Positions 52,409-60,904 of a DNA stretch of 64,000 nucleotides are shown one piece after another. Both the position numbers and the translations under genes were made by a program. This DNA is from Lancefieldella rimae ATCC 49626. GTDB taxonomy: Bacteria > Actinomycetota > Coriobacteriia > Coriobacteriales > Atopobiaceae. The first letter of the stretch is position 1. Every line of letters begins with the position of its first letter. The DNA is taken from assembly GCF_000174015.1 (NCBI RefSeq), contig NZ_ACFE01000001.1:496001-560000 (forward strand), written 5' to 3'. Below the pieces are notes generated by a model that had not been told where the DNA came from, did no database searches, and saw only the letters and a program-made list of their open reading frames with translations.

Positions 52409-53515
52409 TTATGAGAACTGTTGTCTTTCTTCATGAAGACGGAATTTCTGCCATGGTCGTAAGGTGTCAATCAGGAAATGCTCTTCGTCTGGAATATGGC
52501 CGACAACATTTGTTTTGCCGGTATTGATCATATCCGTGCAAGCAATCTGCATCTCTCCTGCATAGTGACCATAGAGACTGCTATCAATAATGACATCTCC
52601 ACGGTGAATGCTCGCAGGTGCATTAAATACGTCAAAGGTATGTCCTTTGTACTTCATGCGACTCTGAGACGAACGGATCAGATTGTCAGAAACGTCCCCT
52701 CTGTTGCAGTGAAGTTCATCTAAAACAATGCTCTTCTCGACAGCCGGAATTGCATCCACAAGTTCCACGCCAAAACTTACCAGATCATGTGGTAGGGATT
52801 TGACTTTTTCAAACTCGGCTTTCGTAGCAAAGCAATTTGAAATGATAACGTCGTCAATGGTCCCCATTGAAATATAGTGTTCCACTTGCAGGTGCATGGG
52901 CATATGTCGATGCATCTCCAACGTGGGAAGCCCCTCGGTTACCGGCCAAGGCCCAAATGAATCTTGAACCTGACTGGTTACAAACGCCGCCGTATTGATT
53001 CCGTACTTTGTAAAACGCTCAGTGCAGCGGTTAAAAAATTCAAGTCCCAACCCCGAGTAACCATGAGGGTAAAAATTATGGCACCCAATGAGTTTGTTTT
53101 TGTTTGGCTGGTATTTCATGATGGTGTCGAGATAATCCACATCGTTACTCATATTGAGCTCAACAAACAGTCCCTCAGGATTGAATGTCATAAATGACTC
53201 TTCTTTTCCGGTGAACCCTAAATCAAGACGAAAGCCATCCGCACCGATCTCCTTAAAGAACGAGAGATCTCCATACGAGATGCCAAACTCCTTAAAAACC
53301 TGCGGATTTACATCAAGAATAATCTCAAACCCAAGGCGGTGCGCATACGCGTTAATGTCCGAAAACTTCTGAACAACAGCCTCTTTCGTACCCTGAACCG
53401 AAAGAAGACAGCTAAAAATACGAGAGAAGCCCGCTTCTGCCGCCATGTCAAGATATGCAAAGATTTCCTCTTGTGTGTTCTTCTCGGGATATATTGAAAT
53501 TCCAAGGCGCTTCAT
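52409..53515 (-). CDS. mupG: 6-phospho-N-acetylmuramidase MupG / DUF871 family
   Basis: 368 residues. TIM-barrel N-domain opening KRLGISIYPEKNTQEEIFAY, with EIILDVNPQVFKEFGISY and CHNFYPHGYSGLGLEFF blocks, and a cyclophilin-like C-terminal domain ending IDTLRPWQKFRLHEE. DUF871 was identified as MupG in Staphylococcus, splitting MurNAc-6P-GlcNAc inside the cell. No mur operon partners are adjacent, so the substrate here is inferred from family. A diverged remnant of the same 3' end is at 47598-47760. Confidence 0.88.
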   Translation of the reverse strand: MKRLGISIYPEKNTQEEIFAYLDMAAEAGFSRIFSCLLSVQGTKEAVVQKFSDINAYAHRLGFEIILDVNPQVFKEFGISYGDLSFFKEIGADGFRLDLGFTGKEESFMTFNPEGLFVELNMSNDVDYLDTIMKYQPNKNKLIGCHNFYPHGYSGLGLEFFNRCTERFTKYGINTAAFVTSQVQDSFGPWPVTEGLPTLEMHRHMPMHLQVEHYISMGTIDDVIISNCFATKAEFEKVKSLPHDLVSFGVELVDAIPAVEKSIVLDELHCNRGDVSDNLIRSSQSRMKYKGHTFDVFNAPASIHRGDVIIDSSLYGHYAGEMQIACTDMINTGKTNVVGHIPDEEHFLIDTLRPWQKFRLHEERQQFS

Positions 53516-53689: not shown

Positions 53690-53718
53690 TTGACCTTTCA
53701 GTAGTATCTCGCTACGCT
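53690..53718 (+). promoter_or_regulatory. Candidate promoter of the magnesium ATPase leader
   Basis: TTGACC (53690-53695), 17-bp spacer, TACGCT (53713-53718). Start of transcription would fall near 53725, giving about 280 bases of leader before the ATPase. The region 53516-53689 shows no supported gene. Confidence 0.5.
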
Positions 53719-53722
53719 ACAG

Positions 53723-53760
53723 GCGAGAAGAACATTTTCGTAATATCTTCTCGCCTTTTT
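53723..53760 (+). terminator. Terminator-like hairpin made of an inverted GCGAGAAG pair
   Basis: AGGCGAGAAGA (53721-53731) pairs with TCTTCTCGCCT (53746-53756) around a 14-base loop, followed by TTTTTG. The arms are the octamer GCGAGAAG and its complement. It lies at the presumed 5' end of the ATPase leader, so it may act as an early attenuator, a terminator for upstream transcription, or simply an octamer pair. Confidence 0.65.
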
Positions 53761-53796
53761 GTTTGGCTTTTAAACCCCTGTATAAGGAGGTGCTTT

Positions 53797-53907
53797 ATGT
53801 CTGATCACAGTCGAAGTTATCGTATTTGGGCGGAAAATTGTCCGTATCCACCGTGTTTGCTGTGCTCGATAAAGTGCCTCTATAACGGCGTTTTTCTCGC
53901 CAGCTAA
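53797..53907 (+). CDS. 36-residue leader peptide upstream of magnesium ATPase
   Basis: ATG 53797 has a near-perfect Shine-Dalgarno (AAGGAGGTG) and is the best ribosome site in the region. The product (MSDHSRSYRIWAENC, then PYPPCLLCSIKCLYNGVFLAS) is not a plausible enzyme, but contains prolines (PYPP) and four cysteines. It ends 55 bases before a terminator-like hairpin and 97 bases before the ATPase ATG. In Salmonella, the mgtA leader ORF MgtL is proline-rich and couples Mg2+/proline status to termination; this ORF has the matching layout, not matching sequence. Confidence 0.65.
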   Translation: MSDHSRSYRIWAENCPYPPCLLCSIKCLYNGVFLAS

Positions 53908-53961
53908 GCACTGCGAATAGGGACAATCTACTCCGCGCCACATTCTTGCATCTGCCAGTCG

Positions 53962-53988
53962 GTGTCAGCACACATGACACAATTTTTT
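53962..53988 (+). terminator. Attenuator-like hairpin before the magnesium ATPase
   Basis: GTGTCA (53962-53967) and TGACAC (53975-53980) form a 6-bp stem with a 7-base loop, followed by AATTTTTTG. It lies 17 bases upstream of the ATPase start codon and downstream of the leader ORF, where it could terminate transcription conditionally. Confidence 0.6.
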
Positions 53989-54004
53989 GAAACAGAGGTG
54001 CGCA

Positions 54005-56890
54005 ATGGCTAAAACAAGGCGCGCGATTCAGAATCAAACAAACCGTACTCTCGACCGCGGCGACCTCGGTGCGCTGCTTGGTTTTGCTGCCACTCATTCG
54101 GAACAAAGCGTTTGTCGAAAGGCACGCGCGTATACAGGCGGCCTGCCGATTGATATTGCACAGGCAAAGCTTGATCTCAATGGTCCCAATGCAGTCTCTG
54201 AGACCGTTGAGGATCCTACGGTTATTCGCTTTTTAAAGTGCTTCGCAAGTCCCTTTACGCTCATTTTGATCGTATTAGCTGTGATCTCCTATGTGACCAA
54301 TGTCGTGTTGGCCTCGCCCGGAGAAAAAGATCCCTCAACTGTCATCATCATTGCGGCCATGGTGCTCATCTCGGGCATCATCGACTTCGTGCAAAGCTCG
54401 AAAGGCGCCTCAGCGGCCGCGGCGCTTTCGAAGATGGTCACTGCCACTACGTGCGTGATCCGCCAGCCGATCAGCTTCGACAACTTTGAGGGCAACGAGA
54501 ACAACGAGGACACTCTGTCTGAGGACGGCGCGGCACCCAACGGAAGCGAAATGCCCGACGAAAATAGAGACACCAACAGCTTTGACGATAAGTCTGCAAC
54601 CGCCGGAAACGACGACAGCTTTGATAAGGAGATTCCTTTTGCTGAGGTAGTCGTCGGAGACGTAGTGCTTCTCGCCAGCGGAGACATGGTACCTGCAGAC
54701 TGCCGCGTACTCGACGCTAAGGACCTCTTTGTAAACGAAGCTGCCCTGACCGGCGAATCCGAGCCTGTCGAAAAGCTGCCGGGCGTTGTACATGCACGGC
54801 GCCGTGCCGACGGAACACGCTACCCACTATCTCTTTCCGAGTGCACGAATCTGCTGTTTGCAGGCACTACCGTACAATCGGGCAGTGCCCGTACCGTCAT
54901 AGTAGCCACCGGTGACGATACCTATGTAGGGCGCATGTCAAAGGCCCTCCAGCAGCCTGCCGCCGAGACAAGCTTTGACACGGGTTTGAAATCGGTCTCC
55001 AAGGTCCTTGTCGCCTTCATGCTGATCATGTGTCCGATCGTACTGCTCGTCAACGGCATCATGAAGGGAGACTGGCTGGACGCGCTTTTGTTCAGTGTCT
55101 CGGTTGCTGTTGGCATCACACCGCAGATGCTGCCCGTGATCGTTACCACCTGTCTCTCGCGCGGAGCCACACAGATGGCAAAGCGAGACGTCATCGTCAA
55201 GAGTCCCTCGGCAATCCAGAATCTCGGCGCCATCGATATCCTTTGCACCGACAAGACCGGCACCATCACAGCTGACGAGGTGGTGCTTGAGCACCATCTG
55301 AACGTCCTCGGCGAAGAAGATGAAGCTGTCTTGCGCCACGCCTTTCTAAACAGCTACTTTCAGACAGGGCTTCGCAACCTCATCGACAAAGCCATCATCA
55401 AGACCACCGAATGCCTTACTGATATCGATCATCTGACCGGCGATTACCGCAAGATCGACGAGGTCCCCTTCGATTTTGAGCGCCGGCGCATGAGCGTGGT
55501 GGTCGAGGATAGTTCAGGCAAGGCTCAGATGATCACCAAGGGCGCCGTCGAGGAGATCCTGACTGTCTGCAACTCCGTTGATCTTTGCACCGAGGTATCG
55601 CCGCTGACCGAAGCACAGCGCCGCGAGGTGCTTCGGAGAGTGCAAAACTTCAACGACGAGGGCATGCGCGTCATAGCGGTAGCTCAGAAGAATGATCCGC
55701 GGCCGGTAGGCGAGTTCGGCGTCGATGATGAATCCGAGATGACTCTCATCGGCTACCTGGCGTTTCTTGATCCACCTAAGGCAAGCGCCGCCGAGGCCGT
55801 CAAAAAGCTTGGTGAGAAGGGCGTCAGCGTCAAAGTCCTTACGGGCGACAATGAAGGTGTTGCAGCTGCCGTCTGCAAAAAGGTCGGCATCAAGGTCGAT
55901 GCGCTTCTTTTAGGTGAGGAAGTTGAGAGCCTCTCCGATCAGGCACTTTGCAAGCGTGTCGAAGAAACGCAACTCTTTGCCAAGCTCTCTCCCATGCAGA
56001 AGGCGCGCGTTGTCGAAGCGCTGCGCCAAAATGGCCATATCGTAGGCTTCATGGGCGACGGCATCAACGACGCAGCTGCCATGCGTGCCTCTGACGTAGG
56101 CATCTCTGTAGACACTGCCGTCGATGTGGCAAAGGAATCGGCCGACATCATCCTGCTGCAGAAAGATCTTCTCGTCCTTGAGAGCGGTGTTGAGGAAGGC
56201 CGGCTCACCTACGGCAATACGATCAAATACATCAAGGCGACTGCCAGCTCAAACTTTGGCAACGTCCTTTCGGTCATGGTCGCCAGCCTGTTGCTTCCGT
56301 TTTTGCCTATGTCCGCGCTGCAGCTGCTGCTTTTGGGACTTGCCTATACACTGACCTGTATTGCGATCCCCTGGGATACGGTCGACGAGAGCTTTCTGGC
56401 AAAGCCCCGCTCATGGGAAGCGCGTTCCATCACAGGCTTCATGCTCTGGATAGGGCCGGTGAGCTCAATCTTTGACGTGCTCACATTCGCGCTCATGTTC
56501 TTCATCATCTCCCCTGCCCTTTCGGGCGGCAGCTGGGCGGAGCTGGTTGCCTCCGGCAATACCGCTGCCCAGGCTCTTTTTGTTGCGTCCTTCCAGACGG
56601 GCTGGTTCATAGAATCCATGTGGACCCAGACCTTTGTCTTGCACGCGCTGCGCACCGAGAAGCTGCCCTTCATCCAGGGCCGCCCCTCCGCGGCTCTGAT
56701 GGCGCTCACTCTTATCGGCATTGCAGCGGTAAGTGCGCTGCCCTTCCTGCCCGTAGTATCCACTGCTCTTGGACTCATCCGCCTGCCGGAGGCCTTCTTC
56801 GGCTGGCTTTTGGCGCTCATGTTCGGCTATCTGATCCTTATTAGCATCGTCAAGACGATCTATATACGGCGGCATGGCTCGCTTTTGTAG
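54005..56890 (+). CDS. mgtA: Magnesium-transporting P-type ATPase (MgtA/MgtB)
   Basis: P3B-type ATPase that brings Mg2+ into the cell. About 961 residues from ATG 54005 (MAKTRRAIQNQTN; GAGGTG upstream). The actuator region is DVVLLASGDMVPADCR with TGES-type EAALTGESEPVEK, the phosphorylation site is DILCTDKTGT, and FMGDGINDAAAMRASDVGIS is the hinge. Four C-terminal membrane spans follow. An unusual acidic insert (about residues 160-205, many Asn/Glu/Asp) lies between the second span and the actuator domain. GC-richer than its neighbours on both sides. Confidence 0.95.
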   Translation: MAKTRRAIQNQTNRTLDRGDLGALLGFAATHSEQSVCRKARAYTGGLPIDIAQAKLDLNGPNAVSETVEDPTVIRFLKCFASPFTLILIVLAVISYVTNVVLASPGEKDPSTVIIIAAMVLISGIIDFVQSSKGASAAAALSKMVTATTCVIRQPISFDNFEGNENNEDTLSEDGAAPNGSEMPDENRDTNSFDDKSATAGNDDSFDKEIPFAEVVVGDVVLLASGDMVPADCRVLDAKDLFVNEAALTGESEPVEKLPGVVHARRRADGTRYPLSLSECTNLLFAGTTVQSGSARTVIVATGDDTYVGRMSKALQQPAAETSFDTGLKSVSKVLVAFMLIMCPIVLLVNGIMKGDWLDALLFSVSVAVGITPQMLPVIVTTCLSRGATQMAKRDVIVKSPSAIQNLGAIDILCTDKTGTITADEVVLEHHLNVLGEEDEAVLRHAFLNSYFQTGLRNLIDKAIIKTTECLTDIDHLTGDYRKIDEVPFDFERRRMSVVVEDSSGKAQMITKGAVEEILTVCNSVDLCTEVSPLTEAQRREVLRRVQNFNDEGMRVIAVAQKNDPRPVGEFGVDDESEMTLIGYLAFLDPPKASAAEAVKKLGEKGVSVKVLTGDNEGVAAAVCKKVGIKVDALLLGEEVESLSDQALCKRVEETQLFAKLSPMQKARVVEALRQNGHIVGFMGDGINDAAAMRASDVGISVDTAVDVAKESADIILLQKDLLVLESGVEEGRLTYGNTIKYIKATASSNFGNVLSVMVASLLLPFLPMSALQLLLLGLAYTLTCIAIPWDTVDESFLAKPRSWEARSITGFMLWIGPVSSIFDVLTFALMFFIISPALSGGSWAELVASGNTAAQALFVASFQTGWFIESMWTQTFVLHALRTEKLPFIQGRPSAALMALTLIGIAAVSALPFLPVVSTALGLIRLPEAFFGWLLALMFGYLILISIVKTIYIRRHGSLL

Positions 56891-57020: not shown

Positions 57021-57430
57021 CTAGTGTATAGATATCTGTGGAACTTGTCCGCTCAGACACCTATCAATATGATAGGTCAATACATTAGGGATACTAGTTC
57101 TATCAGAAAAAGCTTTCATTTTTAATGTTTCACTTAATTTTGTTTTAGTAATATATTGCTCCAACTCATTGAGTAGAGTAATGCATGTCTCCATGCTCAT
57201 CGACCTTCTGCTTAGATGATTTTCAAAACAATACGAGCATCGCAAATCACACTCTACAGTAAGAGCAACTATTAGGTTCATAGTACCATTAGCATGCATA
57301 TCCATTAAGTCCACTATTTGATCTGGCGTAAGGCTATGTAATTTAATGCTTGTTTCGTCCTCTTTCTTAAATGCCTTATCAAATGAATCAAACCCGAATG
57401 GCTATTATTGTCAATCAGCTTGTAATACAT
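57021..57430 (-). pseudogene. Broken radical SAM peptide-modifying enzyme gene
   Basis: Starting at ATG 57430 (MYYKLIDNNSHSG) and, after a frameshift near 57390, continuing FDSFDKAFKKEDETSIKLHS, LTPDQIVDLMDMHANG and the radical SAM cluster motif CDLRCSYCFENH (CxxxCxxC). The frame then ends after about 60 more residues with no TIM barrel or SPASM domain. The start is 8 bases after the ABC exporter gene. The CxxxCxxC plus exporter context suggests a sactipeptide-type or related ribosomal peptide maturase, now inactive. Confidence 0.75.
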
Positions 57431-57438
57431 TTTCGTTT

Positions 57439-59190
57439 CTATTCATTTTGAATTAAGGGCCTTGTCCCATATAACTTTTTTAGGCGTTTTATTATGCCTT
57501 TTTCTGCAAGCTCTTCAAAAGTCCCGACAGCGATAATTCGTCCCTCATGCAAAACAACAATCTTTGTAGCATACAAAAGACAGTTGATGTGGTGTGTGAC
57601 CATTATAATGCACCTCTTTTGTCGCTCCTTAATCAATTGCCTCATAACAATAGCTTCATGCCTCGAATCAAGCGACGAGGTAGGTTCATCCAAAATAAGA
57701 ATAGGTGCCTTTTTCAATAATGCGCGAGCAATAACTAAGCGTTGCCTCTCTCCACCTGATAGGCGTTTTCCCTCATCACCAATGACGGTTTTAAGGCCTA
57801 AAGGCAAATGTTCCACCAACTCAAGAGCCCCAACGGCCTGAAGCATCCGCTTCATGTGAACTTCATTGATAGCTGCATCTCCCATTGATAGATTCTCTTC
57901 AATACTAAGAGGCAGCAAACTACTGTCTTGAGAAACAAAAGAAATCCGTTGTCTAAACGTCGCGGGAGTTATCTGATTGACATTAATACCTTCCAAAAAG
58001 TAACTCCCCGCATATTGAGGGGAAAATCCCATAAATAAATTTAAAAGCGTGCTTTTTCCGGCTCCGCTCTCGCCGATAATCATGATGCATTCGCCTTTAT
58101 GCGCGTCAAAATCTACATGAGAAAGAGCCGGCACGCTGCCATACATAACTCCTATATCGCGTAAAGATATGCAGGCTGCCGTTGTGTTAAATGTTACGTT
58201 AGGCAATATATTGTGGTCTATAACTCTAGCCCGCATATCGTTCTCTTTTAGCAGTACGACAAGTTCTTTCAAACTGTCCCGAGATGACCTTATAGAACAG
58301 AACGAGTCGTTAAAATCTATCATGTAATTAACAAGCGGCTGTGTAAACTGAACAAGAAACATGACCGTGCCTAAATCTCCATTTTGTTCATGCGTCAAAA
58401 ATAATACGAACCCCAATGCTATCGGCAAGACCTCCGACAGATAGAACAGCATATTGCTCACGAGCTCATGTAATGCATATGTCTTTTCGTATTCTATTTT
58501 GGAACGTTCGGCAGCATGTATTACTTTTTCAGATTCGGAATACGCATGATTTTCCTGGTGAAATGCTCTAATCGTATCAATACCGGATACGGTCTCACCA
58601 AAATATGTACTAATGTGACTTGAGTCATGTTGTAATTTCTTCCGTTTAATTGAGAGCCTAGCGTAAAATGCAGTATGAACTATAGCTGCAGTAATAAAAA
58701 TTACTAGATAAACAATACCAAATATGAGGCTAATTCTAGCTATTACCAAAAGTGACAAAAACGAAAGTACCAATGCGCTTACAAAACGAAATAAGTCCGT
58801 TGCGATAAGCTGAGCAGCCAATTCAGTGGCATCTAAAAGTCTAGATGTATATCCAGTTGGATCAATGATAACATCTTCTTTTTTCTCAAGAGCAGCAAAG
58901 GACTGCCTATATAAATCTGCCTTAACATAGATTTCTGAATTAGGGATAAGAAATTGCTCAATACTCTTCATGGCAAAGGTGCTTACCACACTTAGCACTA
59001 AACTTAGAGCAAGATATCTCATAAACCCTTGCCCTAAGACCAAATGATCATAGAAGCGCTCCAGCAAAACTGCTAACACATAGGAGCTGAGGAACTGAAC
59101 TGTTACGAGTTTGATTTGCGCAAGAATCCATCCACGTCTACTTGTAGTCAAATGCGACAGTAAAAATAGTAAGTTACTACTTTCACGCAT
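57439..59190 (-). CDS. ABC exporter, fused permease-ATPase (cassette gene 2)
   Basis: 583 residues from ATG 59190 (MRESSNLLFLLSHLTTS) with AGGAGGGG upstream. Six N-terminal membrane spans in about 300 residues, then the ATPase with Walker A IGESGAGKST near residue 372, Q-loop FVSQDSSLLP, signature LSGGERQR near 478 and Walker B ILILDEPTSSLD. It likely pairs with the product of the gene 22 bases upstream as a heterodimer. Very AT-rich codon use. Confidence 0.92.
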   Translation of the reverse strand: MRESSNLLFLLSHLTTSRRGWILAQIKLVTVQFLSSYVLAVLLERFYDHLVLGQGFMRYLALSLVLSVVSTFAMKSIEQFLIPNSEIYVKADLYRQSFAALEKKEDVIIDPTGYTSRLLDATELAAQLIATDLFRFVSALVLSFLSLLVIARISLIFGIVYLVIFITAAIVHTAFYARLSIKRKKLQHDSSHISTYFGETVSGIDTIRAFHQENHAYSESEKVIHAAERSKIEYEKTYALHELVSNMLFYLSEVLPIALGFVLFLTHEQNGDLGTVMFLVQFTQPLVNYMIDFNDSFCSIRSSRDSLKELVVLLKENDMRARVIDHNILPNVTFNTTAACISLRDIGVMYGSVPALSHVDFDAHKGECIMIIGESGAGKSTLLNLFMGFSPQYAGSYFLEGINVNQITPATFRQRISFVSQDSSLLPLSIEENLSMGDAAINEVHMKRMLQAVGALELVEHLPLGLKTVIGDEGKRLSGGERQRLVIARALLKKAPILILDEPTSSLDSRHEAIVMRQLIKERQKRCIIMVTHHINCLLYATKIVVLHEGRIIAVGTFEELAEKGIIKRLKKLYGTRPLIQNE

Positions 59191-59212
59191 GTTTTCCCCT
59201 CCTTCATTATTA

Positions 59213-60904
59213 CTAGAAGATCGGTACATCTGTATGGGTCTGCTCAGGTATGAAGTTTTTAATAAATAGGCTCTTGTCTTTTACCTTATGCACCCTTCCA
59301 TTACAAACATGCAGAATGCAGTCTGCGTGCCTCATAATTGATTGATTATGCGTTGCAATAATGAAAGCCTTCTTTTTCTTAAGCACCTCAAATACATCAA
59401 GCGCCATAGCTATATTCTTAGCATCAAGTGAGCTTGTTGGTTCATCCATTCCTATGAGAGTTGCATTGCTTACGCAGGCTCTTGCAATGCATATGCGTTG
59501 CAATTGTCCACCTGAAAGAGATGCCAATCCACCAGCACCGATACAGGTCTCAAAGCCATTGGGGAGTTTCATGATAGCATCATAAATATCTAGCCTTCGA
59601 CACAGCTCATATATCTCTTCATCACTTGCGGCAGAACCAAGTCGGATATTTTCCATTACAGAGGTCGAAAAAATGAAAGGATCCTGACTCACAAAAGCTG
59701 CTGCAGAAACTTTATCGTTCAGAGTTTCTTTTGCATAGAAAATCTCTCCCTCAGAAGGAGGATATATACCGCACAAAACATGTAAAAGAGTCGATTTTCC
59801 ACTGCCGCTTTCACCTACGAGCACAGTCATCTGTCCCAAAAAACATGTAAAAGTTGCCTCAGAAAATACCTTTTTATCTCCATATGAAAAACCTACGTTA
59901 TGCATGCATACGACATCTGTCGCACGCTTTGTGGCGCAGAAATTTACTCTACGGGTGGGTGAAAGTTTCAATATATCAATAATACGTTCCTCTGCTGCAC
60001 TGTTCTTGTGACGCAGAGAAATAAACTGAGGAAGAAACAGGAGAAAATTATTCAAATGTCGCCGAAGCATACCAAAAAGAACGAACTTACCAAAAGTAAC
60101 AGATCCAGATATAACCAAAGCTGTACCAATAGAGAAATGTAAAAATATAGGAATCATATTGATGTAGGACAATTTAATGGTATTTCGCGTAATCTTGAAG
60201 TTGTTATCTTTCGTCTTTACACAAATCTCAGAAAGAATAGACGTAAAACGGGTCAAGAAGAATGACTCTGCGTAAAAGGACTTAATTACTCGGAGTTGAC
60301 TCACAATGGTATAGAGCAAGTTTGACATTTTACTATTACATTCACTGAGATGACAGTATGTTTCGTCCATGGACGAATCAATCTTAATGTTCATATATAG
60401 AATGAATGGCAGCACTGCAAATTCCGCAAGCGCGAACTTCCAATCAACAAAAAATGCAAGCGTAACAGCCAAGGTAGCGATACATCCACGCCGCAGGAGC
60501 ACATAAAGGGTCTGTTCACGAAATGACTCAATCGCCTTTACATCTAGAGTTAACCTAACACTAAGATCGCCTTCTGTTACCTTAGCAACCGAAAGTACCG
60601 GAGCAGATATAAGAACAGAGTAAATACGGCGCCTTAGCTTAGAAATATGCTGCGCGCACGAAATCTTGAAAAGAAATGGAGTTAAAACACTCGAAACCCA
60701 TTGAACAACAATTGCTGCAAGAAGAAACAACATACTACGTAAAAGCTGTTGCTCGCTAAAGCTATTGTATGCAAGCGCATCAACTGCTACACCTTCAAAC
60801 CATGCAAGGGCAACATTTGCCCCACCTTCAATGAGAACAAATAACCACAAAAAAGCACTAATGCGCATGTCATTACTATGTATTTTACTGTTATGAGACT
60901 GCAA
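59213..60904 (-). CDS. ABC exporter, fused permease-ATPase (cassette gene 1), TTG start
   Basis: 563 residues; TTG at 60904 has GGAG 4 bases upstream, while the ATG at 60868 has no ribosome site. Membrane spans occupy residues ~15-300. ATPase: Walker A GESGSGKST near residue 366, signature LSGGQLQR near 464, Walker B LIGMDEPTSSLD. The layout mirrors cassette gene 2; together they resemble peptide/lantibiotic exporters without a peptidase domain. AT-rich. Confidence 0.9.
   Translation of the reverse strand: MQSHNSKIHSNDMRISAFLWLFVLIEGGANVALAWFEGVAVDALAYNSFSEQQLLRSMLFLLAAIVVQWVSSVLTPFLFKISCAQHISKLRRRIYSVLISAPVLSVAKVTEGDLSVRLTLDVKAIESFREQTLYVLLRRGCIATLAVTLAFFVDWKFALAEFAVLPFILYMNIKIDSSMDETYCHLSECNSKMSNLLYTIVSQLRVIKSFYAESFFLTRFTSILSEICVKTKDNNFKITRNTIKLSYINMIPIFLHFSIGTALVISGSVTFGKFVLFGMLRRHLNNFLLFLPQFISLRHKNSAAEERIIDILKLSPTRRVNFCATKRATDVVCMHNVGFSYGDKKVFSEATFTCFLGQMTVLVGESGSGKSTLLHVLCGIYPPSEGEIFYAKETLNDKVSAAAFVSQDPFIFSTSVMENIRLGSAASDEEIYELCRRLDIYDAIMKLPNGFETCIGAGGLASLSGGQLQRICIARACVSNATLIGMDEPTSSLDAKNIAMALDVFEVLKKKKAFIIATHNQSIMRHADCILHVCNGRVHKVKDKSLFIKNFIPEQTHTDVPIF

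Follow-up and report, generated by a model that had tools for sequence, protein, structure and literature searches.

How is the magnesium transporter gene mgtA of Lancefieldella rimae controlled, and does the short open reading frame (ORF) in its leader take part in this control? The window, the whole stretch of 64,000 nucleotides that was analysed (G000:C9:496001-560000, G+C 50%), comes from a genome of 1.63 Mb. The gene behind the leader had been called a magnesium P-type ATPase in an initial annotation, which is confirmed by the match of its 961-aa product to TIGR01524 (1040 bits, cut-off 611). Our main reading, to which we give a probability of about one half, is that the leader ORF is a regulatory element in the mgtA 5' UTR which acts through translation speed and would turn on Mg2+ import when Mg2+ is low. 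The features of the locus are as follows:

52409-53515, minus strand: mupG-like gene, divergent from the mgtA leader promoter
53690-53718, plus strand: promoter TTGACC-N17-TACGCT (TTGACC 53690-53695, 17-nt spacer, TACGCT 53713-53718)
53721-53764, plus strand: strong, terminator-like hairpin (53721-53756) with U-run (TTTTGTTT), where the transcript is predicted to begin
53784-53792, plus strand: Shine-Dalgarno AAGGAGGTG of the leader ORF, invariant in the genus alignment
53797-53907, plus strand: leader ORF of 36 codons, MSDHSRSYRIWAENCPYPPCLLCSIKCLYNGVFLAS (ATG 53797, TAA 53907), with homologous ORFs before mgtA in relatives
53809-53817, plus strand: conserved codons 5-7, AGT CGA AGT (Ser-Arg-Ser), the same in 5/5 genus genomes
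53962-53988, plus strand: weak stem GTGTCA/TGACAC (53962-53980) followed by a U-run (AATTTTTT), the attenuator of the initial annotation
53995-54000, plus strand: Shine-Dalgarno GAGGTG of mgtA, read from the sequence
54005-56890, plus strand: mgtA, magnesium-translocating P-type ATPase, 961 aa, TIGR01524 match

The comparison within the genus covers five genomes, in all of which the ORF precedes mgtA, the outcome of a conservation check that the initial annotation had proposed. The promoter, the Shine-Dalgarno (SD) and the first codons of the leader ORF are constant in 5/5 genomes, and the 13-mer GGAGGTGCTTTAT occurs as a single copy per genome, always upstream of mgtA (5/5). The promoter had been picked out before; in the window it matches the consensus at 8 of 12 positions, which is under the promoter-scan threshold, and it stands above chance by its conservation, as TTGACC-N17-TAC[GT]CT is kept in 5/5 genus genomes at 67-84 nt 5' of the SD core, with a spacer of 17 nt throughout and hexamers identical except for one -10 base. 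The leader peptides begin with MSDHSRSYRIWAENCPYPPC in the window, MSDHSRSPRSSAEPRLYALW in G001 and G004, and MPSRSSSLRLTADADPV in G002 and G003. The window peptide has the N-terminus MSDHSRSY and PYPP at residues 17-20; PYPP and four cysteines, which had been pointed out in the peptide, are missing even in the sister species (MSDHSRSPRSSAEPRLYALW...), and a PYPP/cysteine peptide as the sensor was rejected since neither is kept within the genus. A known peptide family was likewise ruled out, with no NCBIfam match among seven leader peptides and no Pfam match among five of them. Judged by these alignments, the conserved features of the leader are the SD and the early in-frame AGU and CGA codons.

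To place the ORF in a wider context, mgtA orthologues were gathered from family (Atopobiaceae), order and named genome contigs, and a leader ORF was counted when it matched the anti-SD complement over at least 7 nt and was 6-70 codons long, with no other selection. Such an ORF is present in 51 of 59 distinct Coriobacteriia mgtA leaders, compared with 1.2 in dinucleotide shuffles and 0/36 inside mgtA, which bears out the 36-codon ORF with its SD that had been noticed in the window. Among the other mgtA leaders, mostly from Bacillota, 29 of 63 contain one (shuffled 1.9; inside mgtA 1/63). The gap from the ORF stop to the mgtA start has a median of 98 nt in Coriobacteriia (97 nt in the window, where the mgtA ATG lies at 54005), which implies that stop and start are not, as a rule, directly coupled there. 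Between genera the first codons of the leader ORF are kept, and its length (19-65 codons) and C-terminus are free to vary.

Codon use was followed in 88 non-redundant ORFs (<75% identity over 36 nt; SD matches as short as 6 nt admitted), a set of related and therefore not fully independent sequences in which some spurious picks dilute the signal. Within codons 2-15 of these ORFs, 98 AGT trinucleotides lie in frame, and the other two frames contain 4 and 6. For the null model, Ser and Arg codons were sampled from the mgtA of the same organism (2000 draws); against it, the 98 AGT compare with 17.2 expected (maximum of all draws 30), the 38 CGA with 4.6 (maximum 14), and the 51 ORFs carrying AGT in codons 2-11 with 11.1 (maximum 20). 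The 37 of 88 ORFs that lack AGT in codons 2-11 include some of the spurious picks; one codon table was made from 65 ORFs after the removal of 23 by eye, and all 88 unfiltered gave the same result. The AGT excess holds for Coriobacteriia alone (60 vs 5.6 expected) as well as for the non-Coriobacteriia group alone (38 vs 11.7). It is strongest at codons 5-6, vanishes past about codon 20, and does not show in the opening 14 codons of mgtA (3 vs 4.1). As AGC is not enriched in the leader ORFs and the UCN codons are depleted, AGU itself is favoured and not serine alone. The in-frame AGT is found at codons 2-10 with variable spacing to the SD, so that it is most likely decoding that is constrained, rather than a fixed RNA motif. 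Further codons read by G-U wobble, GAT for example, show no notable enrichment, which means that plain weak wobble explains the codon choice incompletely.

The AGT motif as a general feature of start regions in the family was rejected, because a search for SD + ATG + AGTNNNAGT in 140 family genomes returned mostly mgtA leaders. The remaining matches are scattered singles and the conserved start of one coding sequence (MPAQSK...), which in the one case read (L223) looks, by its sequence, like ribosomal protein L10. No description of the AGU/CGA leader signature was found in the open-access literature; subscription papers could hold one. The ORF in the window carries this signature, which extends from gut actinobacteria to clostridia and mycobacteria, with the strong extended SD AAGGAGGTG, 36 codons (about 20-65 in the class), a position in the 5' UTR, in-frame AGT CGA AGT within codons 2-11, and the Mg2+-transport gene mgtA downstream.

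An M-box upstream is no part of our definition of the class. The M-box (ykoK) riboswitch RF00380 controls mgtA in Bacillota, and Rfam places it upstream of mgtA, and of this kind of ORF, at most Bacillota loci that were examined; the order in most of the leaders inspected is aptamer, strong intrinsic terminator, leader ORF, mgtA. M-box, ORF and mgtA are all present in L159, Lactococcus cremoris. Among 20 Coriobacteriia leaders examined, one contains an M-box (L090) and 19 do not. For the window, a covariance-model search at the gathering score found neither an M-box nor any other Rfam element in the leader, and no RF00380 in the whole window, and both were rejected as candidates there. The window leader thus has an AGU/CGA ORF without an M-box, whereas most Bacillota and mycobacterial cases have one.

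The mycobacterial cases start from six Actinomycetota M-box loci of one family in which the aptamer is followed by ATG AGT TCC AGC GAC AGT CCG GGC CGA AGT and variants, behind the SD AGGAGGTGA. By position and the conserved proline 7 these ORFs correspond to the published mycobacterial uORF2/rv1805A (PMC12810186), an identification that is our own. In nine M-box ORFs the AGT frames are 16:0:0. For rv1805A, the portions of PMC12810186 used here describe an M-box ORF of unassigned function that is strongly expressed and conserved in its genus, propose a function for the peptide and report no codon signature. The uORF2 sequences (rv1805A/rv1535A) resemble the ORF of the window in the SD, in the early ATG AGT ... 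GAC AGT CCG ... CGA AGT and in the Mg2+-related operons downstream, and differ in that the M-box is translational there and absent from the window. Similar ORFs occur before an Nramp-like gene (L257, L258) and at other M-box loci (L269; L276, L277, L282) before genes that look Mg2+-related, all of these genes being named from sequence only.

The existence of the ORF, its conservation with mgtA, the selection on its codons and its order relative to the M-box can be read from the sequences compared. For its translation, its response to Mg2+, the direction of control and the output step, we infer the following. The near-perfect SD would load ribosomes onto the leader ORF, and the slow wobble codons Ser-AGU and Arg-CGA would make the passage through codons 4-9 sensitive to the state of translation, chiefly to Mg2+. 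With ample Mg2+, the ribosome would pass quickly and mgtA would stay off. When Mg2+ is scarce, it would slow or drop off on AGU/CGA, often beside early acidic residues, and the slowed or lost ribosome would leave the downstream RNA in another state, in which mgtA is transcribed or translated. The element would work alone in the genus and be placed after the M-box in Bacillota and mycobacteria.

This mechanism has precedents in enterobacteria. An in vivo his-leader assay in Salmonella placed CGA and AGU among the strongest ribosome-stalling codons, with CGA slower than CGC and CGU, and with NNC usually faster than NNU where one G34 tRNA reads both (PMC4046918); these codon speeds may not be those of Coriobacteriia, Bacillota or mycobacteria. 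In Salmonella, the codon-biased mgtL is read slowly at low Mg2+, which relieves Rho-dependent termination (PMC6335274), and the EPDP motif of E. coli MgtL leads to drop-off at low Mg2+ (PMC11282234). The mgtL ORF and the present ones share the position of a short ORF 5' of mgtA and an early bias towards sensitively read codons and acidic residues, which in mgtL are Pro CCU/CCC (m1G37 tRNAs) and acidic residues, with translation speed or drop-off as the Mg2+ sensor there (PMC6335274, PMC11282234). By contrast, the present ORFs lack EPDP and conserved Pro codons and are biased to Ser-AGU and Arg-CGA, lie about 100 nt from mgtA and belong to Gram-positive lineages, and Rho and antiterminator stems have been demonstrated for mgtL only. 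The simplest reading of this analogy is that the present ORFs would follow the mgtL logic using other codons. The mgtL-like logic suggested by the initial annotation is thereby supported, and far more widely than could be known from the window, with the exception of PYPP, the cysteines and the post-ORF stem. Amino-acid attenuators of the his leader type also read out a leader ORF by ribosome speed at special codons; here, however, the codons do not match the gene product and no conserved terminator or antiterminator was found. The tRNAs for AGU and CGA share s2C32 in E. coli (PMC6898146), and this modification was rejected as their common factor here because TtcA (NF007972) has no match in the window's genome or in the genus and family genomes searched, and elsewhere in the order only sub-cut-off matches in four genomes.

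The output step could in principle be an intrinsic-terminator attenuator 3' of the ORF or the strong hairpin 5' of it, which we regard as improbable. The hairpin at 53721-53756, noted near the start by the initial annotation, is strong and above chance in the window genome (-17.3 kcal/mol, z -3.7, 1/200 shuffles equally stable) and is followed by a U-run, but as a terminator it is not retained in genus genomes G001-G004, and at the predicted transcription start it could hardly be controlled by an ORF 3' of it. The proposed attenuator stem GTGTCA/TGACAC does exist with its U-run, yet it is at chance level (-7.6 kcal/mol, z -1.2, 23/200 shuffles as good), is separated from the U-run by two A, and is missing in the nearest relatives (MgtA identity 89%). 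No stable GC stem directly before a U-run and conserved in relatives was found 3' of the window ORF, and the GTGTCA/TGACAC stem is probably no functional intrinsic terminator; a terminator at this place was rejected as output, being weak and unconserved in the genus. Good terminators 3' of the ORF do occur in some relatives (L039, -21.7; L077, -19.7), and in Coriobacteriia as a whole they are only mildly enriched (7/39 vs 2.0 shuffled). Rho or SD masking are candidates for the output, and a step via Rho or RNA folding would be more likely than an intrinsic terminator. The interval between ORF and mgtA shows a slight rise in C over G skew (0.10 vs 0.065, p 0.04), and folding predicts a pairing of the mgtA SD with UGCAUCU some 50 nt before it, with a full fold at shuffle level (z 0.2); a shared output structure across the leaders was not found.

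Other alternatives concern the sensor itself. Early acidic (and Pro) nascent residues, and not codons, may destabilize the ribosome at low Mg2+ as in MgtL, which we consider rather unlikely for the class. Residue 2 is D or E in 42 of 88 leader ORFs, and Streptococcus (MQIDDHPEPH...) and Lactococcus (MESQSINSPEPERP) peptides are similar to the EPDP of MgtL; the window peptide, however, contains a single acidic residue among residues 1-10 and lacks an acidic/Pro motif of the EPDP type at residues 2-5, and no property of the peptide can account for the preference for AGU over AGC and for CGA over CGC. As the Streptococcus leaders lack early AGT and resemble acidic/Pro destabilizing peptides, ribosomes may be slowed in two different ways within the class. 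The nucleotide-level conservation (AGU over AGC) would also suit an RNA motif, such as a protein site or a piece of an aptamer, that overlaps the ORF start independently of translation. This is very unlikely given the almost exclusive use of one frame (98:4:6), the scatter of AGT over codons 2-10 and the empty Rfam search. About equally improbable is a functional small protein, e.g. a transporter partner, as PMC12810186 suggests for mycobacterial Rv1805A: the strong expression and genus-wide conservation of that ORF would fit, but conservation between genera is limited to the first codons, and hydrophobic residues are under-represented in codons 1-15, so that a membrane segment is not expected there.

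Under the main reading of a translation-speed element, the findings suggest that Gram-positives widely sense Mg2+ through the ribosome, as is known in detail for mgtL of enterobacteria, and the AGU/CGA codon signature makes such leaders searchable. Synonymous differences such as AGU/AGC or CGA/CGC would bear on codon-anticodon strength as an ion sensor. The main reading would also mean that the M-box, itself well studied, is followed by a second element that has so far been overlooked, and it proposes for rv1805A, the conserved ORF of mycobacteria, a role that can be tested. A bolder extension, which we hold tentatively and at less than even odds, is that Mg2+-sensing leader ORFs form one ancient class spanning several phyla, with the ribosome as sensor and codon identity as signal. 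The weak pairing of AGU (G-U wobble) and of CGA (I-A wobble) would slow or eject ribosomes as Mg2+ falls; the element would act on its own in Coriobacteriia, and in Bacillota and mycobacteria it would add a second layer to the M-box that precedes it. If true, the cross-phylum class would explain Rv1805A.

A very stable hairpin followed by a U-run lies at window positions 53721-53764, upstream of the leader ORF (53797-53907, plus strand) and exactly at the predicted start of the mgtA transcript. It has the look of a terminator and occupies the same relative position as the terminators of Bacillota M-boxes (Mg2+ riboswitches), but the sister species do not keep a terminator there. Within MgtA itself, residues 155-205 or so (window 54467-54617) form an acidic, low-complexity insert, at which the match of MgtA from other genera is interrupted, to be picked up again at about residue 203-209; the insert appears to be specific to the genus. 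On the minus strand, a short ORF with the motif CDLRCSYCF (57021-57314) resembles a truncated radical-SAM N-terminus, gave no match in a Pfam search and adjoins two ABC transporter genes (57439-60904, minus), with which it is perhaps a decayed modified-peptide cluster.

The three Streptococcus loci L185, L191 and L198 are arranged as M-box, terminator, leader peptide and mgtA, and their peptides (e.g. MQIDDHPEPHIHSQSLICVVL) are strikingly similar to the destabilizing motif of E. coli MgtL. At locus L215, Bacillus sp. FJAT-27264 carries a divergent pair of M-boxes separated by about 170 nt, of which the one directed at mgtA has no leader ORF with an early AGU codon, while the other (L276) is followed by ATG GAC AGT AGC AGG. 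The Trichococcus genome that holds L146 has a second M-box (L282), where M-box and AGU leader ORF precede a fragment resembling the MgtA N-terminus and then a CorA-like ORF; it looks as though the leader had been recruited together with part of mgtA.

Early AGU/CGA codons and an extended Shine-Dalgarno sequence are common to the M-box ORFs L253, L255 and L272-L275, all from one Actinomycetota family, which are identified here as putative mycobacterial uORF2 of the rv1805A type.
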